From the IMG/VR virus record IMGVR_UViG_3300013132_000039, positions 1 through 64,000 of that record: a stretch of 64,000 nt of DNA; one strand, written 5' to 3'. This document shows, piece by piece, positions 21,770-48,214 of the stretch. The stretch's first letter is position 1. The number at the start of each line of letters is the position of its first letter. A program made the position numbers and the translations under genes. A model generated the notes under the pieces. It was not told the DNA's origin and did no database searches. It worked only from the letters and a program-made list of their open reading frames with translations. The stretch is from a virus.

Positions 21770-21771
21770 AA

Positions 21772-21779
21772 AATAAATA
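21772..21779 (+). promoter_or_regulatory. late promoter AATAAATA for the second giant fibre
   Basis: AATAAATAT just after the stop of the first giant fibre; a 26-base leader carries CGGAG before the ATG at 21806. Confidence 0.75.
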
Positions 21780-21805
21780 TTATAAAATAGAATCTCGGAG
21801 TTAAT

Positions 21806-32663: not shown

Positions 32664-34355
32664 GTGGCAAGAACAACTAGATCAGGTGTAGCAGGCAGCG
32701 CAGCAAGTGGATTGGGTGGATTATCAGTTCAAGATACAACAATTACTACATTGACTTCCGGCGAAAATATAACATTAAATGCTCCAGGAACTGGAGTTAC
32801 TATTTCTACAACACCTTTGGTGGCTAGTAATACTACAGGAGCTATAACAGGTCTTACAGCTACATTGGCTACAGGTACAGCGATTGTAACTATCACAGGT
32901 GTAGGACAAACAACAAATGGTCTTTTAGTAGGACAATCTCTTACAGTTACAGCAGGAACTGGATTATTTGGCGTAGGAGCAACAATATCTAGTATAGATA
33001 GTTTAACTCAGTTTACAATGAGTGCCAATCATAATACATCAGGAGCTGTAACATTTAGTCAAACTGCTGCTCCAGGATTAGGAGTAGTAGGTGGTGTAGG
33101 TATTGCACAGGATTTATTTGCTGGTGGAACCTTAACTGTATTAGGTGGATTCAGTGCTCCTATCGGAATTTCTCCTGCGGTATCAAGTACAGGTGCTTTT
33201 ACTAGCTTACAAAGTACTGGATTGCAGCTAGTTACAAGTTCAGTCGACGCTGTCGCAGTAAAAACTAATGCTACTTTAACAGTGAACCATGATTTTAACG
33301 AAAGTAATATTTGGTATCATTATAACATAACTAGCGATTTTACTCTTAATCTTATTAATGTGCCTACTACTAATGATAGAGTGTTGGCTGTTAGCGTAGT
33401 TCTTGTTCAAGGAGCCACAGGTCGTGCTGTTACAGGGTTTCAAATAGATGGAGTTGCACAGACCTTAAGATACCCAGGATACATAGCTATTAGCGGTACA
33501 GCTAGTAGGACTGAAGTACAAACGTTTGTACTCCAACGCTCAAGTAATGCATGGACAGTACGAACCTATATGAGTACTTATGGAGAAGCTATAGGATCAA
33601 GTCCGTTAAATCCTGCTTCTAGTGCAGACGCGATTAAAACTGCCAATGCTAGCGCAACCAGTGGACTATATTGGATTAAAGGATCAACTTGGACTTATCC
33701 AGCTTTATGCTATTGCGAAATGACACTACACGGAGGCGGATGGGTTTATTTGATGCAACGCCTTTGTACAAATGATCAAGGACTACCGTCTACTTATTTG
33801 ACTGCTCCAGCTGCTGGATTGCCAAATCACGCTAGCTCTGATTTTTACGGAACAAGAGATCTGTTAAATAACTCTTTAACAGTGCAGGCTATGTGGAATG
33901 GTATTGTTGGAGCAGCAGGTTCAGGAAAAATATTTGCAAGAGAAATGCAGATAGTTGGCGGAACTTATGATGAAGCACAAAGATATGTTTCTTCGGTTGA
34001 TGCTGGAGCTATAGATTGGACAGCTTTTCAAAGATTTTTTGCAGGTAATTTTGTAAATGGAACATTTACCTCAACAAATTTATCTGTTTGGTATAATAAT
34101 GGAAATAACGTAGCATTAAACAAACGAGGATTTAGTTATAGTGCTCCTTACCTGGCCACAATAAATTCAGGAGCTACTAACGATACTGATTTATGGTTTT
34201 GTAACGGAGCAGACGGTGACAGTGCTACAGGTGCTAATTGGAGCTTTGCCCTACAAAAAGGCGGCGCTGCTCCTCCTGCAACAGCAACAACAGCTAATGG
34301 TGGAAATCGACACAGTGGAAGATCAAGATGGGCAATAATAGCTATAAAAGCATAA
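32664..34355 (+). CDS. tail fibre with fibrinogen-like C-terminal domain (3 of 3)
   Basis: 563 residues with a GTG start, chosen because GGAG lies eight bases upstream and no ATG fits. N-terminus RSGVAGSAASGLGGLSV and GVVGGVGIAQDLFAGGTLTV matches the paralogues. Residues about 335-365, GLYWIKGSTWTYPALCYCEM followed by TLHGGGWVYLMQR, are the clearest fibrinogen-type opening of the three. The end GGNRHSGRSRWAIIAIK resembles the closing part of such domains. Likely a receptor-binding fibre. Confidence 0.7.
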   Translation: MARTTRSGVAGSAASGLGGLSVQDTTITTLTSGENITLNAPGTGVTISTTPLVASNTTGAITGLTATLATGTAIVTITGVGQTTNGLLVGQSLTVTAGTGLFGVGATISSIDSLTQFTMSANHNTSGAVTFSQTAAPGLGVVGGVGIAQDLFAGGTLTVLGGFSAPIGISPAVSSTGAFTSLQSTGLQLVTSSVDAVAVKTNATLTVNHDFNESNIWYHYNITSDFTLNLINVPTTNDRVLAVSVVLVQGATGRAVTGFQIDGVAQTLRYPGYIAISGTASRTEVQTFVLQRSSNAWTVRTYMSTYGEAIGSSPLNPASSADAIKTANASATSGLYWIKGSTWTYPALCYCEMTLHGGGWVYLMQRLCTNDQGLPSTYLTAPAAGLPNHASSDFYGTRDLLNNSLTVQAMWNGIVGAAGSGKIFAREMQIVGGTYDEAQRYVSSVDAGAIDWTAFQRFFAGNFVNGTFTSTNLSVWYNNGNNVALNKRGFSYSAPYLATINSGATNDTDLWFCNGADGDSATGANWSFALQKGGAAPPATATTANGGNRHSGRSRWAIIAIKA

Positions 34356-34364
34356 GGAGAAAAA

Positions 34365-35564
34365 ATGGGTTTTTTTAATAAAGCATCACAAAGTTCAGCA
34401 GGAAAATATTACGAAAAGCCATCTCCAGGATTCACTGCACCAGATACTGCACAAATATCCGGTGCTAATAACGGGGCTAGTGTTAGTGTAGGAACATTTA
34501 CTCCCTTAACAGACCCGTTTGGAAGAGGAAGAACAACCTGGTCATTTAATGGAGATCTTCCTCCAGGATGGACTTTTAATAGTGTAAATGGTCAGATCAC
34601 TATGCAAAGTATTTTAGGTGGGTTGAATGCTGAATTTGTCGTTTATAGATTTAGTGTAACAGCAAGCGAAATCGTTCCAAATTATAATCAAACTAGAACA
34701 GTTACAAGAAAATATAGTATTAGTTTAACAACTGCTTGGATTAATAGACAGATTATAACACAGGTTTATATGGCGGGAGGTTACCAAAATGGTGTAGTTT
34801 GGTCAAATGTTAATAGAACCACTGCTGCCACCGACACTACTGTAAATTTAGGCGACGGAACTATTAATAACTTTCATTATAAATCAGGCGCCTGCGGATA
34901 TACTAAACTGTATATTTGGAATAATACCACCACTGCATTTAATATGAGAACTGAAGTGAGATCAAATTCAGGGCAAAGTGTTGCTTCAGCTAATAGTGGA
35001 ACTGCCTTTGAGCCAAATAGAGAATACGCTTGGTGTAACGGTGAAGGAGCAGGCCAGGTTAGAAAATGGACTTTTAGTACAGAAACTGTAGCCAACTTAG
35101 GCAATGGATGGAATGATCACGCTGCCAGTATTTCAGGGGAATTCCGCGGAATTTTTTGGGGAAATAGCGCCCAAACAGCGAGAACAATATTTGCCACAGA
35201 TGCGTGGGCTTATATGGGACATAGTGCTGGAGCTCACGGGCAACAAAAAGGCCTAATGGCAAAAACAGGATTTGGGTATGGTGGAAATCAAGGAAACTAT
35301 AACGGCGGATATCAATTTAGAAAAACTAATATTGAAACAGAAACTGGAGCGGGCACATTTAGTAAACTTCATGGAAACTACGGTGAAGAGAACTTTGGTA
35401 TGGCACAAACAGCAGGATACTTATTAGGGCAATATAATGGAGCACAAAACAATGCTTCTTTTAAATATACATATGCTACTGATAGTGGATTTACTGGCGG
35501 TGCAACATTAGAACCAAAAGGACACGGAGGATGCAGTTCAGGACACTGTGGCTGGAGGGATTAA
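34365..35564 (+). CDS. fibre-tip protein with Ig-like domain and Gly/His/Cys tail
   Basis: 399 residues. Residues about 45-125 (TTWSFNGDLPPGWTFNSVNG) look like a putative Ig/cadherin-like module. From about 135 (VYMAGGYQNGVVWSNVNRTT) comes a Gly/Asn/Tyr/His-rich domain with many short strands. The protein ends GHGGCSSGHCGWRD, with two Cys and two His in 14 residues, suitable for metal binding. Strong ribosome site (AAGGAGAAAAA). Last of the fibre genes; plausible distal adhesin. Confidence 0.65.
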   Translation: MGFFNKASQSSAGKYYEKPSPGFTAPDTAQISGANNGASVSVGTFTPLTDPFGRGRTTWSFNGDLPPGWTFNSVNGQITMQSILGGLNAEFVVYRFSVTASEIVPNYNQTRTVTRKYSISLTTAWINRQIITQVYMAGGYQNGVVWSNVNRTTAATDTTVNLGDGTINNFHYKSGACGYTKLYIWNNTTTAFNMRTEVRSNSGQSVASANSGTAFEPNREYAWCNGEGAGQVRKWTFSTETVANLGNGWNDHAASISGEFRGIFWGNSAQTARTIFATDAWAYMGHSAGAHGQQKGLMAKTGFGYGGNQGNYNGGYQFRKTNIETETGAGTFSKLHGNYGEENFGMAQTAGYLLGQYNGAQNNASFKYTYATDSGFTGGATLEPKGHGGCSSGHCGWRD

Positions 35565-35593
35565 TAAGATAATTAACTTTTTAAGAGAATACA

Positions 35594-36442
35594 ATGACAA
35601 ACTTAGTTAATTTTCCAATAAATCTTTTTGACAAATATGATGAGTTTACTCCTCACGACTCATCAACTACTCATAATAGATTGCTATCTTCAGAGCAAAA
35701 AGCTATTGTAGAAAAGGCAATGAACATTACATTTGTTAATCCTAAATTTAAAATGGAGCATTTTGTTACAAGTGGACAGATTACTCCATACAGTGCATTA
35801 AAACAATGGGTCTTAGAGCTTAAGGGACACGAAGAAACTACTGAAAACTACGAGCACACAATTCGAAAGTTAGACTTAGAAATAGAAGTTTTAGAATTAA
35901 GATCAAAACGCTCAGACGATGAGATAGAAAAGAGACTGATAGAAATAGAATTATTAGAAAAAAGTAAACAAAATAAACAAAACAAAAGAAGACTAAAACA
36001 ACTATACATTGAAAGAGAGCAATTTGTAGAGCTTATTCAAGAATTCTTAGAAAAGCCAGAAAGTAAGACCCCAGATGGCAGAAGTTTATTAGACATCTTT
36101 GAAACACCGGAAGAAGAAGAATATGAAAAACAATATTGGTCAGTGAGGTTGGCCAGACAGGCAGCAATGGATATAAGTTCTTACGGTAAAATTAGTCACG
36201 GTAACTTAGATGCGATTTGCCAATTGCCTCCTGAAATGCAAAATCAAACCTTAGCATTAGCTCACGAGGTAAGTTTAAAAATAGAATCGGCAAATGATTA
36301 TATTAGAAATGAAACACATAAACATTTGTTAGCCAATGACAAAGAATATAAAGATAATACCAGCAGCAATAACAAATCTACACCAAAAATTTCGCTGACT
36401 GAATACAAGGAAGGAAATATTAACGATGTTTATCGTAGTTGA
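35594..36442 (+). CDS. coiled-coil protein of unknown function
   Basis: 282 residues. Residues 30-85 hold a helical domain (NPKFKMEHFVTSGQITPYSA), 86-165 a highly charged coiled coil (TIRKLDLEIEVLELRSKRSD onwards), and the C-terminus is polar. No family recognised. It follows the fibre genes and overlaps the next gene by 17 bases, so it belongs to the operon that continues into the oxygenase genes. Possible roles are a fibre-folding chaperone or an adaptor that brings substrate to the oxygenases; both are guesses. Confidence 0.65.
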   Translation: MTNLVNFPINLFDKYDEFTPHDSSTTHNRLLSSEQKAIVEKAMNITFVNPKFKMEHFVTSGQITPYSALKQWVLELKGHEETTENYEHTIRKLDLEIEVLELRSKRSDDEIEKRLIEIELLEKSKQNKQNKRRLKQLYIEREQFVELIQEFLEKPESKTPDGRSLLDIFETPEEEEYEKQYWSVRLARQAAMDISSYGKISHGNLDAICQLPPEMQNQTLALAHEVSLKIESANDYIRNETHKHLLANDKEYKDNTSSNNKSTPKISLTEYKEGNINDVYRS

Positions 36443-36980
36443 AAGTTATGCCTCTAATGATCCAAGAGTAGTTCCAGAAATGGAATATATTGATCATTAT
36501 AATGATTGGCTGTTTGATGTTGTGTATATACGACCAGAAAACGTTACTAAAGTTCCTTTAAACCAAATGAACTATGAAGAAGTACCTGAAGCAGTTGCTC
36601 GCGCAGCCAAGTTTAGTAAGGCAGACCCTAATTTTCGTTGTAGCTTTGAAGAAAATGGTCCAGAATTGAGTGAAATTCCGAATCAGACGTTAGATGAACA
36701 CGCTACAAAATATAAAAAATATTATAATCTTACTGAGCAAGATAAATCATTGTTAGTTGAATATTATAAAATTCAGATGAGATTATATATTAATTTTCAT
36801 TATAGATTTTTATCTCCAGAGATTGTAATGCGAAACGTACAATTTAGGCAAAACCTTGTCACCGAAATAAACAGTTTAAGTTCTGTTGAGGAATGTAGAA
36901 GTATTTTACATACAAAATTTGACTGCCATACAGCACATACAGCTAATAGTGGACCATCTAAATTAGATTTACACAGATAA
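36426..36980 (+). CDS. hypothetical protein before the oxygenase run
   Basis: 184 residues, acidic N-terminal half (VVESYASNDPRVVPEMEYID) and a helical C-terminal half (LYINFHYRFLSPEIVMRNVQ) ending in a His-rich tail. No motif recognised. It overlaps the previous gene and the next gene starts two bases after its stop, so translation is coupled on both sides. It may be a partner or a substrate of the following enzymes. Confidence 0.6.
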   Translation: MFIVVESYASNDPRVVPEMEYIDHYNDWLFDVVYIRPENVTKVPLNQMNYEEVPEAVARAAKFSKADPNFRCSFEENGPELSEIPNQTLDEHATKYKKYYNLTEQDKSLLVEYYKIQMRLYINFHYRFLSPEIVMRNVQFRQNLVTEINSLSSVEECRSILHTKFDCHTAHTANSGPSKLDLHR

Positions 36981-36981
36981 A

Positions 36982-37587
36982 TTGATTTTTTTAAAAGACT
37001 ATATAGAAATTGATCAGTTTTTATCTAAGGATGATCAACACAAACTATTACATCATTTAATACATCCTAGTTTTCCCTGGGCAATGAGCCTAGATGCTGT
37101 TTACGGATCAGACGGCATAACTTATAATGAAAACTCAACTATAGGATTTTATCATACTTTACTTTATCAAGGTGAACCTTGCTCATCGGAGCTATCTAAA
37201 CTTTCCTGGGTGGCAGATAAACTTTATCATACTGATTTTAAATTTTTTACTGTAGATAAACTTTTAAGATTTAGAATAGGATTTTTCACAAAACATTTTA
37301 CTACAAAAGCACACAGTCCTCATATTGATTCAGAAATTGATCATTGGACCTGTGTTTATTATGTTAATCAGTGTGACGGAGATACTGTTGTATATCAAGA
37401 CCAATTTCCACAATTACAGCAGAATTATGTTAAAGATTATAAATTTACTGAAAGATACCGTTGTAAACCTAAAATGGGAAAGCTTGTTACATTTGATGGA
37501 AAGTACTATCATAGCAGCAGTTACCCTACTATCAATCCTTTTAGGTTAGCTATCACTTTTAATTTTACTGTTAAGAAAAATACTTAA
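36982..37587 (+). CDS. 2OG-Fe(II) oxygenase 1
   Basis: 201 residues. HSPHIDSEIDHW gives the iron ligands H114-x-D116, FDGKYYHSSS the distal H177, and R188 (NPFRLAITFNF) the 2-oxoglutarate contact: the full H-x-D...H...R set of the double-stranded beta-helix (prolyl-hydroxylase-like) fold. The substrate is unknown. The start is a TTG one base after the previous stop; a stop codon just upstream and the absence of ATG leave no other choice. First of eight tightly packed genes. Confidence 0.82.
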   Translation: MIFLKDYIEIDQFLSKDDQHKLLHHLIHPSFPWAMSLDAVYGSDGITYNENSTIGFYHTLLYQGEPCSSELSKLSWVADKLYHTDFKFFTVDKLLRFRIGFFTKHFTTKAHSPHIDSEIDHWTCVYYVNQCDGDTVVYQDQFPQLQQNYVKDYKFTERYRCKPKMGKLVTFDGKYYHSSSYPTINPFRLAITFNFTVKKNT

Positions 37588-37610
37588 ATAAAATCACTAC
37601 AGAGACTAAA

Positions 37611-38216
37611 ATGTTTGATGATTTTATTGGTGTGTTTGACAATGTTCTAGATAACGACAGCTGTCATAAAATAATTGAATACTATGAAAATTTAAAATCC
37701 TTAAATTTAGTGTATTCTCGTCAATCGTTAAAGGATGGCTTAGCACATTATAAAAACGACGAGACTGCATTTTTGCTTCAGTATGACACTATCACAACAA
37801 TGAAAAAAAATCCTGTACTACAAGATTTTTTAAAAGAGTTTTGGAAATGTTACGAAATTTATGCAGAAGAATATAGTTTATTGTTTGAAAGTGGTTTACA
37901 CGGAATCAACAGTATAAGGTTACAAAAAACTAGACCTGGTCAAGGATTTCATATGTGGCATTATGAATCCAGTGAATATATAACAGCAAACAGAGTTATA
38001 GCTTGGACCTTATACTTAAACACAGTAGTAGAAGGTGGCGAAACAGAATTTTTGTACTACAAAAAACGTATAACTGCTAAACAAGGAAGATTGATTATTT
38101 GGCCAGCAGGTTTTACTCATACTCACAGAGGCAACTCTCCACTTTCAAATGACAAGTATATAATTACAGGTTGGTTAGAATTTATAGGCGGAAATAATGA
38201 CAAGAAAAATTTTTAG
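37611..38216 (+). CDS. 2OG-Fe(II) oxygenase 2
   Basis: 201 residues. FHMWHYES (H117, E119), WTLYLN, EGGETEF, then GRLIIWPAGFTHTHRGN (H170 or H172) and a closing YIITGWLEF are the usual elements of a 2OG-Fe(II) hydroxylase family common in marine phages. The carboxylate ligand is Glu (H-x-E) in place of the usual Asp, seen in some family members. Ribosome site is weak (AGAGA). Its end overlaps the next gene by 20 bases. Confidence 0.8.
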   Translation: MFDDFIGVFDNVLDNDSCHKIIEYYENLKSLNLVYSRQSLKDGLAHYKNDETAFLLQYDTITTMKKNPVLQDFLKEFWKCYEIYAEEYSLLFESGLHGINSIRLQKTRPGQGFHMWHYESSEYITANRVIAWTLYLNTVVEGGETEFLYYKKRITAKQGRLIIWPAGFTHTHRGNSPLSNDKYIITGWLEFIGGNNDKKNF

Positions 38217-39885
38217 TGTACCCCTAAATCCAAAATTGGATCCACAAGAATACTTTGACTTTATGAACTTTTGTCAAGATTATAAAGACTGGATAGCTGA
38301 TATTTACGTAACATTACGTATACCACCATTTAACCAAGATGCAATGGGGGATGTTATTATATTAGAAGAAGCGAAACTAAGCCTAATAGAAGCTGCTCTT
38401 AACCTTCACAATTCTACAGACATTCCACTAAGTGCAACTTTCAATAATATTCAAGTACCTCCTACTCAAAAAAATCTAGATATTTTTATTAAAAATTACC
38501 AAAAACTTTATTCTTTAGGAATCAAAACACTTGTAGTTCCGCATACTCATTGGGTGGCTACAGGTCAAATACAAGCAGCTTTTCCCGGAGTTTATATAAA
38601 AAATACTATTCTACGTGATGTTCATACTGCTCAAGAAATAGTTAATTTAGCCAAATACGGGTTTGATTATATCAACCTTGATCGAGACCTAATGCGGGAT
38701 AAAGAAAAATTATTAGAAATTAAACGAGCCAAAGAGTTTGTAAAAAAAGAATACGGTAAAGATATCGCAATTAGTTTATTAGCTAACGAAGGATGTGTAG
38801 GACAGTGTCCTATGATGGTTGAACATTTCGAATATAATAATAATAGAACAGAAACACAGCCGCAATACTTTTTTGATCCTATTAGCAGAACAACCTGTCC
38901 TAAGTGGGATGTTGAAGATCCTGCTATAGCTTTAAAAACAGCTAATTTTAGCCCCTGGAAAGCAGACTGGGATTACTACTTAGATGAGCTAGGCATTGAT
39001 GTTTTTAAGATGCACGGACGTGAAGATAAAGGTCGTTTGCAAGAAACAATGACACTAATTTCTAGATATGTAAACCAAGAAACATTTGTAGATCCAGGTT
39101 TTGAACAATGGTGCCAAGAAACTAACATAGTAGGTAAACCTATAGAGCTTTGGCGTGAAAAAATTAAAACCTGCAGATTTGAATGTTGGGAATGCCAATA
39201 TTGCGATAAAATACACGAAAAAAAATCTGATTTAGATTATACACCGTTAGTTAAACATGTAGCTCAATCTATTGCTGATTCAGGAGTACCTAAAATTTTT
39301 GTTGATGTTCCCGGTCTAACAAGCCCTCGTGTGCAAACTTTAATAAATCATCTAGCTTCAGGAGTAGGCACTTATATGGAAGTAGGTTCATATTTAGGAG
39401 CAACAGCAATAGCAGCTTTAAAAAATAATAATATAAAAGCAGCCTTTATAGATAATTGGAAGCAGGTACCTCAACCTAAAAAAGAAGGGTTTAAGGTAGC
39501 GGATATTAGTAGTAAAGAAATTTTTGCCAATAATATAAAACCGTATGTAGAAAATTCATTTGTAACTATACTAGATAACGATCTTTTTGAAGTTCCTATA
39601 TGGGAATTCAATCAAGCAGTACAATTTCTGTTTTATGACGGGCTTCACGACAAAGAAACTACTAAAAAAGCTGTAATGTTTTATTATTCTGCATTAGCTG
39701 AAGAATCTATTTTAGTTATGGACGATGCTAATTGGGCAGGAGTAGTAGAAGGAACTAGAGAAGCGTTAGCAGAGCTAGGAGCACAGGTTACTTATGAACG
39801 TCTACTTCTTAATGATGAAGAAAATTTAGAAGAATGGTGGAATGGACTACTTATTTGTGTTATAAGGAAAAATAATGTTAATTAA
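38197..39885 (+). CDS. U32-like domain fused to a class I methyltransferase
   Basis: 562 residues. Part one (1-340) has a TIM-barrel-like order of strands (IKTLVVPHTHW, FDYINLDRDLM, ISLLANEGC) and clustered Cys residues: C200, C204, C234, C326, C330, C333, C336. This recalls U32 proteins such as UbiU/UbiV and TrhP, which hold an iron-sulfur cluster and hydroxylate without free oxygen; the match is tentative. Part two (350-560) has YMEVGSYLGATA (motif I, about 393-404), FLFYDGLHDKETT and ILVMDDANW, as in Methyltransf_24 SAM enzymes. Overlaps both neighbours, hence one operon. Substrate unknown. Confidence 0.65.
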   Translation: MTRKIFSVPLNPKLDPQEYFDFMNFCQDYKDWIADIYVTLRIPPFNQDAMGDVIILEEAKLSLIEAALNLHNSTDIPLSATFNNIQVPPTQKNLDIFIKNYQKLYSLGIKTLVVPHTHWVATGQIQAAFPGVYIKNTILRDVHTAQEIVNLAKYGFDYINLDRDLMRDKEKLLEIKRAKEFVKKEYGKDIAISLLANEGCVGQCPMMVEHFEYNNNRTETQPQYFFDPISRTTCPKWDVEDPAIALKTANFSPWKADWDYYLDELGIDVFKMHGREDKGRLQETMTLISRYVNQETFVDPGFEQWCQETNIVGKPIELWREKIKTCRFECWECQYCDKIHEKKSDLDYTPLVKHVAQSIADSGVPKIFVDVPGLTSPRVQTLINHLASGVGTYMEVGSYLGATAIAALKNNNIKAAFIDNWKQVPQPKKEGFKVADISSKEIFANNIKPYVENSFVTILDNDLFEVPIWEFNQAVQFLFYDGLHDKETTKKAVMFYYSALAEESILVMDDANWAGVVEGTREALAELGAQVTYERLLLNDEENLEEWWNGLLICVIRKNNVN

Positions 39886-41386
39886 CAAAGTTAAAAAAAT
39901 AATTATTTTTGGTGGCGGAACAAGTGGCTGGTTAACCGCAGCATATCTTATAAAAAATTTAACTATTCCTTGCGAAATATTATTGATTGAAAGTACGGTA
40001 ATGGGTCCAATCGGAGTAGGAGAAGGAACTCAACCAGCTACAGCTAGATTTTTATATGATTGCGGCATAGATCCTTTAACCTGGATGAAACCTAGTCAGG
40101 CGAGTTTTAAATTAGGTGTTGAATTTGTTGGATGGACTAAAGACAATTACTTTGTAGATAATGACTTTATAGAAAATACGTTAATAGCTCCTAATCTCTT
40201 TACTACAGATTATTTTATTTCTCAAGACAAGAATGCATTTTATGATTGGCTACCTGCTTATCAAATGGCTAAGGAGAATAAAAGTCCTAAACTGGCAGGT
40301 ATGGATACTAATTATGCACAATCTGGACAGCGTAACTGGGGGGCGGTTCATTTTAATGCATTACAAATTGTAGAAAGTATCAAGAATATTATAGGAAATA
40401 AAATAGAATATGCAGATACTAAAATTGTTAATATAGAAAAAAATCAAGACGGCATTACCGGACTAGTTGATGAAAATGGTATTCGTTTTACAGGTGACCT
40501 GTATCTTGACTGTTCTGGATTTAAGGCTAGATTAATAAATGAAACTTTAGGTGTAGAATTTGAATCTATTACAGATATTCTACCTAATGATAAAGCCGTG
40601 GTGATGCCTACGCAATACAACGATCCTCAAAAAGAATGTTTCCCGTATACTCGTTCAACTGCAATGAATTCGGGTTGGAAATTTACTATTCCTATTTTTA
40701 CTCGAGTAGGTAATGGATACGTTTATAGCAGTAAGTTTATTAGTCAAGAAGATGCAGAGAAAGAATTGCGTGAATCACTAAATGAATATGAAAGCAAAGC
40801 TAATCATTTAGATATGAGATGCGGAATAAACAAAGTTATAGCACATAAAAATGTATGTGCTATAGGATTAAGTGCTGGATTTGTTGAGCCACTAGAGGCT
40901 ACCGGAATTACTTTTACCACCAAGGCAGTAGAAATGGTATGTCAGGCTCTTAACACTACACACGGTATCTGGAGCAATCCTATAAAAAATGAAATTAATA
41001 AAATTTATACTGAGATGTTTTGGGAAATAGTTGCATTTGTTTGGGCACATTATCATTTTAGTTCTAAAAATGATACTGCTTATTGGCAAACAATCAGGTG
41101 TCAGTCTGAAGATATGATTCCAAAAAAAGTTTCTAATATCGTTGAAAAATTTTACCCTTTACCAGGAAGACATTTTTTCCTTAATCCTTCTTCAAGCTTC
41201 CATATTGGTCATTGGTTTAGTGTGTTAAATGCTGGAGATGCATACAAAAATAGTGACTTTAAAATAGACGGAGAAGTCAGAAAGTACGCTGAGTATTTTA
41301 TAAAAAATAACCAACATAGAGTAAATTTGGTTAAAGAAATATTCCCTAATCACTATGACTTTTTAGCAGAATGGTATAATGCATAG
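39875..41386 (+). CDS. flavin-dependent tryptophan-halogenase-like enzyme
   Basis: 503 residues. FGGGTSGWLTA (12-22) is the FAD-binding Gly motif of the family, GVGEGTQP (47-54) the substrate-channel loop, FKLGVEF has Lys79, the residue that in PrnA forms the active halogenating lysine, GWKFTIP (267-273) replaces the W-x-W-x-I-P signature with a Phe at the second Trp, and AGFVEPLEATGI has Glu338, the partner glutamate. So the catalytic pair is intact. Such enzymes chlorinate or brominate indoles using FADH2, oxygen and halide; a flavin reductase would come from the host. Substrate may be free or peptide-bound tryptophan or another aromatic. Confidence 0.88.
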   Translation: MLINKVKKIIIFGGGTSGWLTAAYLIKNLTIPCEILLIESTVMGPIGVGEGTQPATARFLYDCGIDPLTWMKPSQASFKLGVEFVGWTKDNYFVDNDFIENTLIAPNLFTTDYFISQDKNAFYDWLPAYQMAKENKSPKLAGMDTNYAQSGQRNWGAVHFNALQIVESIKNIIGNKIEYADTKIVNIEKNQDGITGLVDENGIRFTGDLYLDCSGFKARLINETLGVEFESITDILPNDKAVVMPTQYNDPQKECFPYTRSTAMNSGWKFTIPIFTRVGNGYVYSSKFISQEDAEKELRESLNEYESKANHLDMRCGINKVIAHKNVCAIGLSAGFVEPLEATGITFTTKAVEMVCQALNTTHGIWSNPIKNEINKIYTEMFWEIVAFVWAHYHFSSKNDTAYWQTIRCQSEDMIPKKVSNIVEKFYPLPGRHFFLNPSSSFHIGHWFSVLNAGDAYKNSDFKIDGEVRKYAEYFIKNNQHRVNLVKEIFPNHYDFLAEWYNA

Positions 41387-41954
41387 ACAAACAACATTAT
41401 TTAGAGCCGATCTATTTCATAAAGGAAATATAGGAACCACTGAACAAAGAACTGAACTCATTAAAGAACTTAAGGCCGCTAGTTCTAGTGTGGAAGAAAT
41501 AGATATGTCCAATCCGGGTTGTAAACGAATCTATAAGCCTTGCAAAAATATAGAATGGCTTTATAAAGAAATAGATCAATTACTATCATCTGCTATTGAC
41601 TTTTATCAAAAAGAAGATATAATATTTAAATCACACTCAAAGGAGAGAAAAAAAACTGACTATTGGGCTAATATAAATTCTCCTGGAAGTAGAAATGTAT
41701 TTCACAGTCATAAAGAAAATACCTTTTCTTTAGTTTATTATTTGCAAGCAGATGGAACTGGCGCTTTAAGATTTGTTAATAGTTCTAATATATTAGGTGA
41801 TTGTAATTCTATGTCTCCATTCTCGAGAGATTTTGAAGTCCATCCAAAAGAAGGGGATTTGTTTTTATGGCCGAGCTGGGTCCCGCACGAAGTAGAAACA
41901 AATCAATCTAATATAGAAAGAATTAACTTGGTTTTTAATATAACTTTACACTAA
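41379..41954 (+). CDS. 2OG-Fe(II) oxygenase 3 (TIGR02466 type)
   Basis: 191 residues. WANINSPGSRNVFHSHKEN (H109-x-H111), FSLVYYL, HPKEGDLFLWPSWVPHEVE (H170) and ERINLVFNI (R181) match the putative 2OG-Fe(II) oxygenase group in which the second ligand position is His. Start and stop overlap both neighbours (ATGCATAG and TAATG), so it is translated in step with the halogenase. Confidence 0.8.
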   Translation: MHRQTTLFRADLFHKGNIGTTEQRTELIKELKAASSSVEEIDMSNPGCKRIYKPCKNIEWLYKEIDQLLSSAIDFYQKEDIIFKSHSKERKKTDYWANINSPGSRNVFHSHKENTFSLVYYLQADGTGALRFVNSSNILGDCNSMSPFSRDFEVHPKEGDLFLWPSWVPHEVETNQSNIERINLVFNITLH

Positions 41955-42694
41955 TGAAAAAAATTACATTTTTCTCAATTACGCCTGGACTTAAAGAATT
42001 ATTTCCAGTTATTCCTGCACAACAATATAAACCTAAATGGGTAAGTAAAGCTAGAGAATCTTTTAAGGAAGAATTAAAAAATTATGAAGGCGATAAATTT
42101 TCACACATTTATAGATGTCCTGGAATTTTTGATTTGATGAAGTATGGATATATACTTACTTTACCGTTTGACTTAACTATAGAAACTAATGGGGATAAAG
42201 AAACAGTATCATACATACTACCATCAACTGATTTAAAATTATTAATGGGTACAGAACCTTTATCTGCCCATATGGATAATAAAATTGTAGGATTTTTTCC
42301 TCCTAAGCCCTGGTCTATTAAAACTATTATTAAAATAACAACTCCTTGGTATATAATTGCTCCAAAAAATTTAAAGTTTTTAATTATACCTATTCCATAT
42401 TCGGACAACTATGAATTTGAAATGGCTCCGGGTATTTTAGATCCAGGACTTAGCAGCGAAATTAATTTCCAGTTACATTGGAATGTTGTTATAGGCAAAA
42501 GAACAATAAAAGCAGGAACTCCTATTTGTCAAATTATTCCTATAAGTGAGGAAAAATATGAACTAGAAGTTCGTGATGCAACTGAAAAAGATTTAAAGTG
42601 GATTAGGATGAAACGATACTTTTATGGGTTTAGCTTTAACTTTAATAAAAATATCTTTAAAAAAATGTACGAAAAATGGTTTAATCTAAAATGA
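41954..42694 (+). CDS. DUF6065-like protein
   Basis: 246 residues. RCPGIFDLMKYGYILTLPFD near 53-73, then FPPKPWSIKTIIKITTPWYI, IIPIPYSD, GILDPG, INFQLHWN and IKAGTPICQIIP. I associate this order of motifs with the unknown family DUF6065, whose members often sit beside hydroxylase-like genes. No catalytic residue set can be named. Mostly beta strands, C-terminus basic. Starts on the last base of the previous stop and overlaps the next gene, so it is a full member of the run. Confidence 0.55.
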   Translation: MKKITFFSITPGLKELFPVIPAQQYKPKWVSKARESFKEELKNYEGDKFSHIYRCPGIFDLMKYGYILTLPFDLTIETNGDKETVSYILPSTDLKLLMGTEPLSAHMDNKIVGFFPPKPWSIKTIIKITTPWYIIAPKNLKFLIIPIPYSDNYEFEMAPGILDPGLSSEINFQLHWNVVIGKRTIKAGTPICQIIPISEEKYELEVRDATEKDLKWIRMKRYFYGFSFNFNKNIFKKMYEKWFNLK

Positions 42695-43221
42695 GAATTG
42701 ATAGATTTATCACTCCTACTTGGCTAGGACATATAGAAATAACAGATAAGACCATAGACAGCTATAGGAAATGGGCAGATTTTGAAAAAACATTGGATCC
42801 TTTAGGAGCTACACTTTCAACTACTGTGAAAGGATGGCAATATATTTTTCATCAAAATGACAAAGATCCTATTTGGTTGCAAGATTTAAGATCTGAAATT
42901 ACAAAAATTAAAGAAGAAGTAAATTGGAGTAGGGTAAAAACTATATGGGCTATCGATTACGAGCCAGGAGGATATCAAGACCCTCATTTTCATAATGTTG
43001 GGGTAGTCCAGCTTGTTTCTGTTATTATAAACTTATTAGGAACTGCTCAACTCATACTACAAGACCCTAGACCGATAGCGCAAGCTCAAGGAGAAGATTT
43101 CGCTAGTATTATAGATTTATCTCCAGGAGATTGGTGTGCCTTTCCATCATACATTATACATAACTCTAGGCCCTGTGAAAAACATCGTAGCATACTAGTT
43201 ATAGATGCTTTTTTAGGATAG
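42691..43221 (+). CDS. 2OG-Fe(II) oxygenase 4 (probable)
   Basis: 176 residues. WAIDYEPGGYQDPHFHNVG gives H99-x-H101; LSPGDWCAFPSYIIHNSRPC gives H157; HRSILVIDAF gives R166. Spacing and the surrounding strands fit a double-stranded beta-helix oxygenase. It lacks the Asp of the classic triad, as does the TIGR02466-type protein two genes before. Overlaps the previous stop (ATGA). Confidence 0.7.
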   Translation: MRIDRFITPTWLGHIEITDKTIDSYRKWADFEKTLDPLGATLSTTVKGWQYIFHQNDKDPIWLQDLRSEITKIKEEVNWSRVKTIWAIDYEPGGYQDPHFHNVGVVQLVSVIINLLGTAQLILQDPRPIAQAQGEDFASIIDLSPGDWCAFPSYIIHNSRPCEKHRSILVIDAFLG

Positions 43222-43224
43222 GAA

Positions 43225-43773
43225 ATGAAATACAGTTACTATCATATTCCAAAATTTCATTCAATTTCAGAATGCAAAGCAATTTATAATCATTGTTTAG
43301 AAAATATTAACCATTCAATTGAAGATTTTCCTGCTGTAGATGTTGTAAAAACAAGTAAAGTAAAATACTGTTACTTCGGCAACGTAAAAGATGCATTAGA
43401 TAAAATTAAACATATTACTATAGATATTAATAGGCAATTTTTTGGATTCGACCTTTATGAAAAATCTAACTTCGACACAGCTAATCTGAATGAGTACTCA
43501 GATACCAACCAAGGAGAATATGGATGGCATTCAGATGGACACTTGGATGGTATTTGGGATTCTAAATTAACAGTAATCTTAAATCTTTCTCAAGACGAAT
43601 ATGAAGGAGGAGATTTCGAGATTTTTTTAAATAAGCCTATAAAAATTAATGAATTTAAAGAATCGGGTTCATTATTAATCTTTCCTTCATTCCTACATCA
43701 CAGAGTAACACCAGTCACTAAGGGTCACCGCATTACACTATCTCAATGGTTTTTAGGACCTGCACTTAGATAA
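43225..43773 (+). CDS. 2OG-Fe(II) oxygenase 5 (PKHD type)
   Basis: 182 residues. GEYGWHSDGHLDG (H102-x-D104), LTVILNLSQDEYEGGDFEIF, GSLLIFPSFLHHRVTPV (H158 or H159) and GHRITLSQWFLGP (R169) show a complete PKHD-type hydroxylase; the EGGDFE strand and R169 are hallmark features. The most certain of the five. Ribosome site AGGA at four bases. It ends the run and overlaps the convergent minus-strand gene by eight bases. Confidence 0.9.
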   Translation: MKYSYYHIPKFHSISECKAIYNHCLENINHSIEDFPAVDVVKTSKVKYCYFGNVKDALDKIKHITIDINRQFFGFDLYEKSNFDTANLNEYSDTNQGEYGWHSDGHLDGIWDSKLTVILNLSQDEYEGGDFEIFLNKPIKINEFKESGSLLIFPSFLHHRVTPVTKGHRITLSQWFLGPALR

Positions 43774-44043: not shown

Positions 44044-44502
44044 CTACATTATTTCGATTAAATCAACTATAGTATTAATTTTGTTCTGTATAATTTTATT
44101 TTTCAAACTTAAGTCTAATGCTTTATGAACGGGCTTAGGAAAATAGTTTAGATTAAACCACCCCCATCCTAGGTGTTCTTCGCTAAGTTTAGGAACAAAT
44201 TCGTCTTCAACTATACAAAAATACGTACTAAAATTAAACAGATTGTCATTGCTTACAAACTTTTCTAAAGGTATTATTTTACTAATGTTCGGTAGAAAAC
44301 TTAATTCTTCTTCTATTTCACGTTGTAAACCCTGCCAGGCTGTTTCTCCTTGCAGATGCGTACCTCCAACAAGCCCCCAGGTTCCGTTATGCTTTCCATT
44401 AGACTTTTGTAATAATAAAACTCGTTGAGTAGCTCTTGAACATATTATTGCGCCCGAACATATTATTTTTTTAGAGTTGTATTCTCCACTGCCCTCTATC
44501 AT
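44044..44502 (-). CDS. Nudix hydrolase
   Basis: 152 residues from the ATG at 44502 (GGTGAAT ribosome site just before); a start at 44538 would add 12 residues but has only a weak site. The Nudix box is complete: G, five residues, E (GTHLQGE), seven residues, REIEEEL, followed by hydrophobic residues. Such enzymes cleave nucleoside diphosphates linked to another group, such as oxidised nucleotides, NADH or nucleotide sugars; the box alone does not tell which. The gene overlaps the end of gp15 by about 32 bases. Confidence 0.85.
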   Translation of the reverse strand: MIEGSGEYNSKKIICSGAIICSRATQRVLLLQKSNGKHNGTWGLVGGTHLQGETAWQGLQREIEEELSFLPNISKIIPLEKFVSNDNLFNFSTYFCIVEDEFVPKLSEEHLGWGWFNLNYFPKPVHKALDLSLKNKIIQNKINTIVDLIEIM

Positions 44503-46120
44503 ATTCACCTTCAAAGCTTTTTGTCCAAGACACGCCATCCCACTTGTACTGTGTGCCTGTATAGTAATTAGTTTGATAGATTATGGAGTCGGTTCGAGTT
44601 TGAGCGCTAAAAATCATACGCCATTCTGTGCCATTCCAAGATATAATATCATTAGAATATGCTATTGTATCATCCCCAGAGCTGGATTTCCAAGCATCCG
44701 GACCATCTTCATTAAAATTAAGAATATAAGTTATAGTACTTCCTTTAGGAATAACAGTGCTAGTTTTAATATGGCATTTTCCTGATACGTTATCTAATAG
44801 ATGAGAAGTAAGTACTCCATTAACAAATAGTTTACTAGAGTTTATAACATCAAAATCTTCTCCTGTATTAATAATTTTAGACGATCTAAGACTAATAAAA
44901 GTTTCTCTAGCACCACCCCCTAGATTTTCAACTAACAAATATCTTACTCCTGCACTGATAGGTTGATCAAAATGTTCTCCGTTGGGTCTTTTAGGATTAA
45001 ATGTTTGCGGATTAACTATTGCATCAAAGGTACCTCGACCTGTACTATTATCATATCCTAAATCTATGTTTTGAATATTACCCTGATCATCTATATAGTT
45101 ATTACTATGGGCAGTATCTGGATCCCATATAACGCTTAATAATCCAGGATCCAAAGGATTCAAAGCTAAAGTTCCTACTACTATAGTTCCATCTTTTTGT
45201 ATTAAAAAAATCTTACTTAGGCCTGATCTAAAATCTCCAGGTATCTGCTCTAGTAAAATACTCCAAGCCAAATTATCTTTTTCACCTTTGGCTTTACTAA
45301 ACATACGTATACCCTCAGGAGTAACTAATATTTCAAAATTACCCACAGTAGTAGTGGAAGTAAACTCGTAATCAGTCAGACCAAGTCCATAAGCTTCAGT
45401 GTCGGTACCAAGCCCTTCTACATAGTCACCTATTCCTCCTGTGGTTCCCGTATAAATGTTATTAATAATACTTGTAACTACACCTAATTTTTTAATCTTA
45501 ATCGGAGGAGTTAACCAGGTAGGTGTTTTTAATGTTATAGAAGCAATATCAATAGAGCTATTTGTTCCTACTGGAACAGCTCTTGAACTAAAGTTCACAT
45601 CTTCTAACTCTACAACACTTAAACTTGTCCAATCAATATAATTATCTGTAGTTTGTATCTCAAGACTAGGGTTAAACAAAACTAAAATTTGTTCAAGTAT
45701 TTGTAATTTTTGTTCAGTGTTAGATGTCCATATGTCAACTTTCACTGTAAGATCAAACGGTGTAGGCATTAACCTTTCTACTGTAAAATTTTTACCTTGT
45801 TCACTTGTATAAAAATCATTACCTCCACTGTCAGATTCAATAGCTCGCTCTCTAATTTGCATTTTACTAATAAATGTAGGCTCTTGAATTCGTTGACGAT
45901 TAAGTTCGTATTCTGTAATGTATACTGCTATTCTAGGTACACTAGGTATAGAATTTTCACTATTCTGATTAATAATATGGGCTACTTGTCTATCAGGGTC
46001 ACCGTACATTACAGGAACTCTTACCAATGTTCCGTCACCGTATCGTACTACAAAATTACTCAAAAGACGAACAATCTGAGTGACATATCGTCTTATTTGA
46101 CCGTCGTAAAAAAATTGCAT
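44471..46120 (-). CDS. gp15: tail sheath stabiliser/completion protein gp15
   Basis: 549 residues. The first 210 match T4 gp15: FFYDGQIRRYVTQIVRLLSN, LVRVPVMYGDP, SVPRIAVYITEYELNR, PTPFDLTVKVDIWTSNTEQK and ITLKTPTWLTPP. gp15 forms the ring that caps the tail tube and sheath and joins them to the neck. T4 gp15 has about 270 residues; the extra 300 here are beta-rich and end in two WNG/WDG-x-x-W units (near 500 and 530), probably exposed on the collar. It overlaps the gp14 stop by one base. Confidence 0.87.
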   Translation of the reverse strand: MQFFYDGQIRRYVTQIVRLLSNFVVRYGDGTLVRVPVMYGDPDRQVAHIINQNSENSIPSVPRIAVYITEYELNRQRIQEPTFISKMQIRERAIESDSGGNDFYTSEQGKNFTVERLMPTPFDLTVKVDIWTSNTEQKLQILEQILVLFNPSLEIQTTDNYIDWTSLSVVELEDVNFSSRAVPVGTNSSIDIASITLKTPTWLTPPIKIKKLGVVTSIINNIYTGTTGGIGDYVEGLGTDTEAYGLGLTDYEFTSTTTVGNFEILVTPEGIRMFSKAKGEKDNLAWSILLEQIPGDFRSGLSKIFLIQKDGTIVVGTLALNPLDPGLLSVIWDPDTAHSNNYIDDQGNIQNIDLGYDNSTGRGTFDAIVNPQTFNPKRPNGEHFDQPISAGVRYLLVENLGGGARETFISLRSSKIINTGEDFDVINSSKLFVNGVLTSHLLDNVSGKCHIKTSTVIPKGSTITYILNFNEDGPDAWKSSSGDDTIAYSNDIISWNGTEWRMIFSAQTRTDSIIYQTNYYTGTQYKWDGVSWTKSFEGEYDRGQWRIQL

Positions 46121-47415
46121 TATAAATCTGCCTTAGGTTTGAGTGCTTTACTTATTGGTTGACGTTCATCTACCATATCGCCGTCGATATTAGAAACTTT
46201 TGTATTATTAATAAAGCTAGTTTTCAATGTGCTTCTTGTGTCAGTATTAGTTAGAGTATGTCTAACATTATCCTCACGCTTTACCCAACGTTTACCCGAG
46301 TACCTAAACAGTCTATTTGGGCGATAATCAGTTCTTAAAAAGTAATCTCCTTCTACTGCGCCTTGTGGGAACCCAGTTCCGAATCCAAACTGCACACCGT
46401 TGTCTGGTACACCGTCGCCTAACAAGTATCCGTGATATCCGGTTCGTAACGGCCTTTCCATTATTCTACTTGCATCTAACGTTGTCATACTAACATCAAT
46501 ATCAGTTTCATCTGCTGTTTTAAGAGCAGGATTCCCTTCATCATCGACAGCCAAAGTAAATAGTTGTCTTGTTTCATATCCGCTTTTAGGAGCGTTAGCT
46601 TCTGCTTCTGCTATAATTGCATCATTAATTTCTAAAGCTTTATTTTGAGTACTAACTGTTTCCTGGATAGTAGTGCCTGTATATAAAGAGAAGTAGGTGC
46701 TTTCAGGTGGTTCATGCCCGGACACAGTGGATAATACTGTATAAAGATTGCCTTGGTACCTAATTATTTGCCCTGCTGTATAAGTTGTACTACTATCATA
46801 ATCTCCTACAAAATTAGCATCTTTATTTGTGGGAGATTTTAGAATATCTGTAAACTGTTGACTATCGGTAATTTTCTTTAATTTTAATCTATATAAATGG
46901 GGATACCATGTTCGGCTAAAACCTTCGCTGGCTCTTCCTACATCTTCTATAACATAGAACCTAGGTAAACTAGTATCAAAATCATTTAATGCAAATTCAT
47001 CACGCAAATGTGGCAATTCCACCACGTCGCCGCTTAAAGGTTTACGACCGATTAATTTTATTGTATCATTAATATGAACAGTAATTGTTAAAGTATCATT
47101 ATCAAGCCAAAGACCGAATTGGCTTAAGTTAAAATCTATATCTGCTACGTTATAAATGCCTCTAAGGGTATAAATGCTTGGATCATATTTTCTATCTCTA
47201 TTTTCTAAAAATAGTAAATCCTGTATGTTTGTTACGCTTTGATTAGCATAATGAGGGCGTTCCGGAGTAGCTTCTCCTTCTGCTGTGTTCAGCGGTCCTA
47301 TATATTTGTGAAAATAAAGATCTGTTCCTCCAACCTGGAACATTTCACTTATGTTTCTATCAAGGAATTTATAATCGTTGCCCTTTTCTGGACGGTAAAG
47401 TGATAAACGTGGCAT
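46120..47415 (-). CDS. gp14: neck protein gp14 with an inserted sugar-binding-like module
   Basis: 431 residues from the ATG at 47415; an ATG at 47421 would add two residues, and both follow a late promoter without a ribosome site. GGTDLYFHKYIGP, IQDLLFLENRDRKYD and LRGIYNVADIDFNLSQFGLW followed by the GDVVELPH turn identify the T4 neck protein gp14, which with gp13 closes the filled head for tail joining. T4 gp14 has about 256 residues. Residues about 202-246 (GDYDSSTTYTAGQIIRYQGN) look like one unit of the fibre's CBM5/12-like repeats. Divergent from gp13. Confidence 0.85.
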   Translation of the reverse strand: MPRLSLYRPEKGNDYKFLDRNISEMFQVGGTDLYFHKYIGPLNTAEGEATPERPHYANQSVTNIQDLLFLENRDRKYDPSIYTLRGIYNVADIDFNLSQFGLWLDNDTLTITVHINDTIKLIGRKPLSGDVVELPHLRDEFALNDFDTSLPRFYVIEDVGRASEGFSRTWYPHLYRLKLKKITDSQQFTDILKSPTNKDANFVGDYDSSTTYTAGQIIRYQGNLYTVLSTVSGHEPPESTYFSLYTGTTIQETVSTQNKALEINDAIIAEAEANAPKSGYETRQLFTLAVDDEGNPALKTADETDIDVSMTTLDASRIMERPLRTGYHGYLLGDGVPDNGVQFGFGTGFPQGAVEGDYFLRTDYRPNRLFRYSGKRWVKREDNVRHTLTNTDTRSTLKTSFINNTKVSNIDGDMVDERQPISKALKPKADL

Positions 47416-47422
47416 AGTCATA

Positions 47423-47430
47423 TATTTATG
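47423..47430 (-). promoter_or_regulatory. late promoter CATAAATA for gp14/gp15
   Basis: On the minus strand CATAAATA ends seven bases before the ATG at 47415 (TATGACT between). This is the same geometry as the promoter at 784-790. Confidence 0.7.
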
Positions 47431-47452
47431 GTAAATATTAATGGAGAATAGT

Positions 47453-48214
47453 ATGAACGACAATCCACAAGAAGAACGACAAAAAGTCTATGATTATTGC
47501 CGCACCATGCTGGGTGATGGCATGATTGATGTTGAATTAGATCCTGCTCATTACGAAACTGCTCTTAATCGCACGTTAAACAAGTACAGACAACGTAGTA
47601 GTCACAGTGTAGAAGAAAGCTATTGCTTTTTAACTCTTGAAAAAGATAAAAATGATTACAAGTTAAGTGAAGAAATAATCAATGTACAAAGTGCATTTCG
47701 TAGAACATTAGGGTCCAGAACAGGCGGCGGCACAGGAACAAATTTTGAACCTTTTAATTTAGCTTATACAAATACATATTTACTAAACAGCACAATGTTA
47801 GGAGGTATAGCAACATATTTTATGTTTGCCAGCTATCAGGAACTAATAGGTAAAATGTTTGGATCATATATTGAATTCCAGTGGATACAGCATAGCAGAA
47901 CTTTTAGAATTTTACAACGTCCATTTGCAGATGCTGAAGTATTAATGCTTCGTGTTCAAAACTATAAACCCGATTTTATTATTTTAAATGACTTATATGC
48001 TAAACAATGGATATTAGATTATACCTTGGCTAATTGTAAAATTATCTTAGGTGAAGCACGTAGTAAGTTTGCAAACATCGCCGGGCCTCAGGGTGGTGGA
48101 CAGCTAAATGGTGGAGATCTTAAAACTCAAGGTACAGCGGAAATAGAAAAATTAGAAAAAGAACTGTTTGACCTTATCCCCGGCGGAACCGGATATACTT
48201 TTATTATAGGTTAA
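47453..48214 (+). CDS. gp13: neck protein gp13
   Basis: 253 residues from the ATG at 47453, chosen for GGAG eight bases upstream. VYDYCRTMLGDGMIDVELDP at the start, ALNRTLNKYRQRSSHSVEES, then RILQRPFADAEVLMLRVQNY and QWILDYTLANCKIILGEARS are characteristic of T4-like gp13, the head-to-tail connector that works with gp14. Length is close to that of T4 gp13 (about 309). It diverges from gp14 by only 37 bases. Confidence 0.87.
   Translation: MNDNPQEERQKVYDYCRTMLGDGMIDVELDPAHYETALNRTLNKYRQRSSHSVEESYCFLTLEKDKNDYKLSEEIINVQSAFRRTLGSRTGGGTGTNFEPFNLAYTNTYLLNSTMLGGIATYFMFASYQELIGKMFGSYIEFQWIQHSRTFRILQRPFADAEVLMLRVQNYKPDFIILNDLYAKQWILDYTLANCKIILGEARSKFANIAGPQGGGQLNGGDLKTQGTAEIEKLEKELFDLIPGGTGYTFIIG

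Follow-up and report, generated by a model that had tools for sequence, protein, structure and literature searches.

The 64,000-nucleotide window analysed here (positions 1 to 64,000 of IMG/VR virus record IMGVR_UViG_3300013132_000039, which is 76.6 kb long) is the structural region of a T4-like myovirus and carries, behind its fibre genes, a compact unit of eight genes encoding five putative 2-oxoglutarate (2OG)-Fe(II) oxygenases, a flavin-dependent halogenase, a Cys-rich barrel fused to a methyltransferase (U32-MT) and a PHROG 7084 protein. Behind large fibre genes of the cyanophage style (16322-29482) stand three smaller ones and the gene at 34365-35564, whose product we call FIB; then come two uncharacterised genes, the eight-gene unit, and neck/tail genes on the opposite strand. 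FIB, its two partners and the unit are referred to below as the cassette (Table 1). The eight open reading frames (ORFs) follow one another at spacings of +23, −20, −11, −8, −1, −4 and +3 bases, so that the tight packing described by an earlier reading of the letters alone (the sequence-only reading) is present in full, with overlaps of 1-20 bases and gaps of 23 and 3. The unit begins 1 base after the ORF at 36426-36980, and its 3′ end overlaps convergently with a − strand ORF. The same gene order recurs across dozens of contigs, and this recurrence of identical genes in identical order indicates that the arrangement is not due to chance. The late-promoter motifs TATAAATA and CTAAATA are rarer than expected by chance, with none positioned to drive the unit, and sigma-70-like sites occur at chance frequency. 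Thus, it is the ORF overlaps alone that suggest co-expression.

Table 1. Genes of the cassette, with positions in the window and the evidence for each
Product	Coordinates	Strand	Evidence
FIB, fibre protein, proposed substrate	34365..35564	+	PHROG 1417 (phrog_1417 5.6e-40); T4-GC 351 homologue
Core partner, charged, coiled-coil-like	35594..36442	+	T4-GC 353, PHROG 1409 (6.2e-35); P-HM2 annotation
Core partner, remotely homologous to T4-GC 352	36426..36980	+	hhalign probability 97.4%, E 3e-11
Oxygenase 1, HID..H..R, TTG start	36982..37587	+	PHROG 274 1.7e-32; Pfam Oxy_3 24.4 bits, under cut-off 27
Oxygenase 2, HYE..H..K	37611..38216	+	PHROG 61 4.2e-46; Pfam 1.9e-9, over cut-off
U32-MT, Cys-rich TIM-barrel-like + class I O-methyltransferase	38197..39885	+	T4-GC 354, PHROG 1458 (4.9e-160)
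Flavin-dependent halogenase	39875..41386	+	Trp_halogenase (PF04820) E 1e-91
Oxygenase 3, Oxy_5/TIGR02466 type, HSH..H..R	41379..41954	+	PHROG 81 1.8e-29; over Pfam cut-off
PHROG 7084 protein, close halogenase partner in phages; dUTPase/dCTP-deaminase-like fold (predicted)	41954..42694	+	PHROG, AlphaFold2 + Foldseek
Oxygenase 4, HFH..H..R	42691..43221	+	PHROG 81 1.8e-9 (weakest); Pfam 19.6 bits, under cut-off 27
Oxygenase 5, PKHD-hydroxylase-like, HSD..H..R	43225..43773	+	PHROG 61 1.3e-22; Pfam 1.5e-13

What is new here is the linkage of U32-MT to one fibre gene, that of FIB, and to two uncharacterised genes. U32-MT relatives were taken from IMG/VR, where more than 560 exist. At all 63 loci with at least 4.5 kb of upstream sequence, U32-MT is accompanied by FIB, by a gene of the 35594 type and by one of the 36426/GC352 type, the latter position being filled by either the 36426 form or the GC352 form in 63/63. 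The reverse search, made from a set of closer FIB homologues, found U32-MT in 38/38 contigs having 4 kb or more downstream of FIB; the two counts share many contigs and represent opposite directions of the test, not independent samples. Among isolates, the records with a tblastn hit number 123 for U32-MT and 121 for FIB (77/38/8 and 77/38/6 when split by name), most of these records being near-copies (S-RIM2, S-RIM12). P-HM2, which tblastn missed, carries T4-GC 351-352-353-354 consecutively, with FIB both annotated and detected by profile. FIB is a homologue of cyanophage T4-GC 351 ("sericin 1 precursor-like") and, because the 36426 protein is remotely homologous to T4-GC 352, the core block corresponds to the T4-GC 351-354 set of Syn19 and P-HM2. 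In S-RIM14, FIB and U32-MT are both retained, ∼8 kb apart, and in contigs L091 and L095 the enzyme genes lie in inverted orientation with respect to FIB but still adjoin it. The reciprocal linkage and these arrangements are hard to explain by a mere insertion hotspot. In addition, each FIB that could be traced in other phages has at least one of these enzymes alongside. Linkage among relatives, which the sequence-only reading had named as its check, is therefore strong, and the homologues are not scattered and unlinked.

Comparison of the loci resolves the putative operon into two layers, a fixed FIB/U32-MT core and a variable layer composed of the halogenase, PHROG 7084 and the oxygenases. 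The core (FIB, its two partners and U32-MT) can be found with no halogenase and, at 17 loci, with no oxygenase at all. The number and order of the enzymes differ between relatives, which lends no support to the earlier idea of one linear pathway acting on a single target. Within FIB, the N terminus is variable, while the C-terminal domain, which ends in KGHGGCSSGHCGWRD, and the last 15 residues are conserved; G386, G389, S391 and S392 are kept in 96-100% of 106 alignment rows. Most receptor-binding proteins show the opposite pattern. Five of eight long FIBs carry a Gly_rich_2 domain fused at the N terminus.

The core enzyme, U32-MT, consists of a Cys-rich barrel (residues ∼1-340) and an O-methyltransferase domain (∼370-560). 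The invariant residues include seven cysteines, of which four are arranged as C-x3-C-x2-C-x2-C, a pattern that suggests an iron–sulphur site. The AlphaFold model (predicted local distance difference test score [pLDDT] 74) contains an alpha/beta barrel followed by the methyltransferase, with the Cys-rich regions not resolved. The sequence-only reading had called this protein a U32-like/methyltransferase fusion. The methyltransferase half of that assignment holds, with Methyltransf_24 scoring 30.8 bits against a cut-off of 26.3, Foldseek matches to 5x7f, 3tfw and 3duw (E ∼1e-6), and resemblance to COG4122-type O-methyltransferases (3ntv, 3duw, 6jcl). The Cys-rich barrel is likewise present, but its U32 identity was recovered neither by Pfam U32 (PF01136; no match at E<1 in 18 relatives) nor by a PDB sequence search. 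Profile alignment to E. coli TrhP/RlhA/UbiU/UbiV with hhalign gave 109 collinear columns at E 0.0025 with a probability of just 12%, and the barrel thus seems U32-like at best, and remotely so. COG4122-type O-methyltransferases are the class to which TrmR belongs, and TrhP and TrmR yield, in turn, 5-hydroxyuridine and 5-methoxyuridine at the tRNA wobble position. U32-MT would share with TrhP/RlhA/UbiUV (peptidase U32) and TrmR the logic of a barrel plus an O-methyltransferase, hydroxylation followed by O-methylation. However, it is unmatched by Pfam U32, is a single fused protein, and is linked to fibres rather than to tRNA genes.

The halogenase matches tryptophan 5-halogenase 2wet (3.6e-65) and, nearly over its full length, VirX1 (6qgm; 6.7e-49). 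As the sequence-only reading had claimed, it is intact: the GxGxxG motif (GGGTSGW), the catalytic Lys (FKLG) and the Glu box (FVEPLEATG) are all present, and the WxWxIP box reads WKFTIP, the second Trp being replaced by Phe, where its clade relatives mostly have WRWTIP, WRFTIP or WMFTIP. On the halogenase tree the window enzyme falls in a 48-member clade whose genes adjoin U32-MT (Shimodaira–Hasegawa-like approximate likelihood ratio test support 100) and does not group with the VirX1-type halogenases of syn9, S-RIM44 and P-TIM40. A halogenase gene lies downstream of U32-MT in 71 loci, directly adjacent in 54 (with overlap in 47 of the 54) and one gene away in the remaining 17; in 61 of the 71 a PHROG 7084 gene is found within three genes of it. 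Additional halogenases of other clades are present at loci L009, L011, L054-L057, L062, L065, L077 and L084.

The PHROG 7084 protein had been described as DUF6065-like, a label that did not survive: no Pfam DUF of that name matched in 16 relatives. Its AlphaFold2 model (pLDDT 82) retrieves dUTPases or dCTP deaminases as all of the top five Foldseek hits (E 6e-4 to 1e-3), with weak template modelling (TM) scores by query length of 0.31-0.42. A dUTPase assignment by Pfam was not obtained for the protein; across the 16 relatives the only dUTPase match was at 0.078, in one member. The protein may therefore be said to resemble dUTPase/dCTP deaminase in predicted fold only. Its gene adjoins a halogenase in all 14 isolate (cyanophage) records that bear PHROG 7084, and in most contigs. 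A recurrent ORF of ∼110-180 amino acids is found in the cassette region of 46 IMG/VR halogenase loci, often behind PHROG 7084, and is absent from the window.

The five oxygenases named by the sequence-only reading are supported by their signatures as 2OG-Fe(II)-type enzymes, with firm PHROG matches for all five; three score over the Pfam cut-off, and the two under it have the key residues. The metal triads, read directly off the translations, are of the H-x-D/E kind in oxygenases 1, 2 (with Lys replacing Arg) and 5 and of the H-x-H kind in oxygenases 3 and 4. Enzymes of the oxygenase 3 kind are those most frequently retained beside the halogenase. Public labels on such families are at odds with these signatures: PHROG 274 is labelled "DNA endonuclease V" and PHROG 1644/DUF6445 "minor coat protein," although the proteins concerned show signatures of 2OG-Fe(II) oxygenases (syn9 locus L001, 14585-20676; window 36982-37587), and PHROG 3531, "ferrochelatase," likewise matches proteins of this type. 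This looks like widespread misannotation.

Among the neighbouring genes, a NUDIX hydrolase gene (44044-44538, − strand) lies between the enzyme genes and the tail genes. Tail-sheath-stabiliser-like and head-completion-like genes (44471-47463) are inverted with respect to the fibre genes and bear long additional C-terminal parts, one of which weakly matches fibre families. The fibre proteins at 29820-31289 and 32664-34355 have weak fibrinogen-C-like C-terminal matches, under the Pfam cut-off. Positions 30-50 kb of the window have no nucleotide match among phage isolates. No member of the psbA/psbD family is present in the same virus record, which may be a fragment, and a cyanobacterial host is thus not indicated. 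In relatives, ORFs read by eye behind the cassette are haem-oxygenase- and bilin-reductase-like at locus L012 and outer-membrane-receptor-like at L067 and L079, which together suggest that phages from different host groups carry the cassette.

Runs of many oxygenases with halogenases are already known from sequenced phages and are not unique to the window. Behind the syn9 fibre genes lie a pair of halogenase genes, PHROG 7084 and a series of oxygenase-type genes, and eight of ten of these oxygenase-type genes have 2OG, cupin or JmjC signatures by Pfam, some under the cut-off. With at least seven 2OG/JmjC-type proteins in this one row, the earlier view that the number of oxygenases is unusual is wrong for cyanophages. 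The runs in syn9 (gp41-gp54), Syn10, S-RIM44 and P-TIM40 all resemble the window in having a halogenase beside PHROG 7084 and a 2OG-type run directly behind fibre or adhesin genes. However, they contain tandem halogenases of other clades and Gly_rich_2 adhesins, and neither FIB nor U32-MT was found there. Conversely, the T4-GC 351-354 block of Syn19, P-HM2, S-H25 and others holds FIB, the two partners and U32-MT together, but has no halogenase within the block and few or no oxygenases, and its genes are annotated "sericin-like" or "hypothetical"; no function for it is proposed in the literature found. Of four core-block genomes searched whole for a halogenase, only S-RIM14 has one, and it lies outside the block. 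VirX1 of Syn10 (PDB 6qgm), a characterised viral halogenase, belongs to the same superfamily as the window enzyme, and a PHROG 7084 gene adjoins it, but it falls in another clade, as judged via its syn9 counterpart. VirX1 prefers iodide in vitro, and its description gives no natural substrate (PMC8407142).

Phage halogenases and the many cyanophage 2OG oxygenases have been known since at least 2010, with suggested roles in antibiotic synthesis, DNA repair and nitrogen signalling (PMC2984593, PMC3037559, PMC9146016); S-SZBM1 is reported to have nine 2OG oxygenase genes, S-CREM1 ten and S-SCSM1 24 (PMC9146016, PMC9964418). In the literature searched, no natural substrate was found for either enzyme group and the fibre is not proposed as their target.

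Gene content, order, linkage and intact catalytic residues are established from the sequences. The linkage suggests, but does not prove, that these phages chemically decorate their own host-binding fibre, and modification of the fibre tip by the cassette is our best reading, one whose chances we regard as about even. Of the three targets that the sequence-only reading had listed, a fibre, a small peptide or a host surface molecule, the fibre is best supported, because FIB and U32-MT co-occur reciprocally and halogenases stand behind unrelated adhesins. Overall, that reading is partly supported. In the proposed scheme, the region 34365-43773 would act as a fibre-maturation cassette in which U32-MT and the two small proteins form a fixed core serving FIB. 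The Cys-rich barrel, probably with an iron–sulphur cluster, would hydroxylate a residue in the conserved C-terminal domain of either FIB or a neighbouring fibre, with the methyltransferase domain capping the newly made hydroxyl. An exchangeable second layer, made up of the 2OG oxygenases and of the halogenase paired with the PHROG 7084 protein, would add halogen and hydroxyl groups to the same fibre tip and so tune its stability or its receptor binding. We infer the enzyme–substrate nature of the FIB link, the order of the steps, the residues and the benefit.

In favour of this reading, a Trp or Phe stands among the final six FIB residues, usually as part of a WRD-like tail, at 65/65 halogenase loci compared with 6/22 without a halogenase. 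Several observations weigh against modification of the fibre tip, some of them bearing on this tail. On the U32-MT tree the halogenase forms a single clade (one change), and the tail association thus amounts effectively to one evolutionary event. At nine halogenase loci the tail has Phe instead of Trp, while the WRD tail of FIB occurs at L090, L091 and L095 on contigs that carry no halogenase. For these three reasons the C-terminal Trp was rejected as a proven halogenation site. Halogenases behind Gly_rich_2 adhesins, as in syn9, S-RIM44, P-TIM40, S-WAM1 and P-RSM6, provide a more independent clue to the substrate than does the FIB tail, and the Gly-rich domain of these adhesins is the one fused to long FIBs. 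Further points against are that co-inheritance may have other causes, for example transfer of the unit as a single fibre-exchange block; that the S-SZBM1 virion proteome has no reported long tail-fibre protein (PMC9146016); that halogenase genes are found apart from the fibre genes in certain phages (S-B64, HTVC008M, S-H38, CP21); and that metabolic genes, petE and gnd in S-RIM14, also stand behind cyanophage fibres, as do the ORFs of L012 described above.

The last two of these points would also favour a different explanation, which we consider unlikely though far from negligible, namely that a small molecule or peptide of the host is the enzymes' target, in auxiliary metabolism or in making an antibiotic-like product, and that their position beside the fibres reflects an insertion hotspot of T4-like marine phages. 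A hypervariable region is known in the cyanomyovirus structural module (Millard et al. 2009, cited in PMC2984593), halogenases have been suggested to protect against antibiotics (PMC2984593, PMC9964418), and the related VirX1 accepts many small aromatics (PMC8407142). However, a hotspot leaves unexplained the exceptionless reciprocal linkage of U32-MT to one fibre family, the overlapping reading frames, the further fibre-like genes that lie beyond the enzymes in many relatives, and the separate halogenase lineages behind adhesins.

An alternative that we rate as improbable is that the receptor or an envelope glycan of the host is altered by the unit, perhaps as a barrier to superinfection or as a help in release, with the fibre link arising from the receptor that the two share. 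Fibre–receptor pairing predicts the identical co-inheritance, class I O-methyltransferases use many small molecules, and bacterial surface sugars are commonly hydroxylated and methylated. Nevertheless, no glycosyltransferase, export protein or membrane protein was recognised in the unit by ORF, Pfam and PHROG analysis, and flavin halogenases need electron-rich aromatics, which envelope glycans do not offer. Least probable of all is action on nucleic acid, with U32-MT as a TrhP–TrmR-like fusion and the dUTPase-like protein and oxygenases working on bases, since the three resemblances that favour it (the collinear alignment of the barrel, the COG4122-type methyltransferase domain and the predicted fold of PHROG 7084) are all weak (a 12% probability in hhalign, and TM-scores of 0.3-0.4 by query length for dUTPase), it predicts neither the exceptionless fibre-gene link nor the halogenase partnership, and no nucleotide-pool or DNA-modification gene was recognised in the unit.

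Fibre-tip modification may have a wider meaning, which we put forward tentatively and at somewhat less than even likelihood: phages may run a dedicated maturation, like that of ribosomally synthesised and post-translationally modified peptides, on their own receptor-binding fibre tips, with an obligate core, the U32-like hydroxylase/methyltransferase, and exchangeable tailoring by the halogenase and the 2OG oxygenases. The exceptionless FIB link names a concrete candidate substrate and peptide, in culturable phages (Syn19, S-RIM2, P-SSM4, Syn10). If such maturation takes place, phage halogenases such as VirX1 would gain their missing natural substrate, and halogenated virion proteins would be common in aquatic phages. 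Phage fibres would then bear post-translational chemistry known chiefly from peptide natural products, and the prediction of host range from sequence would be affected.

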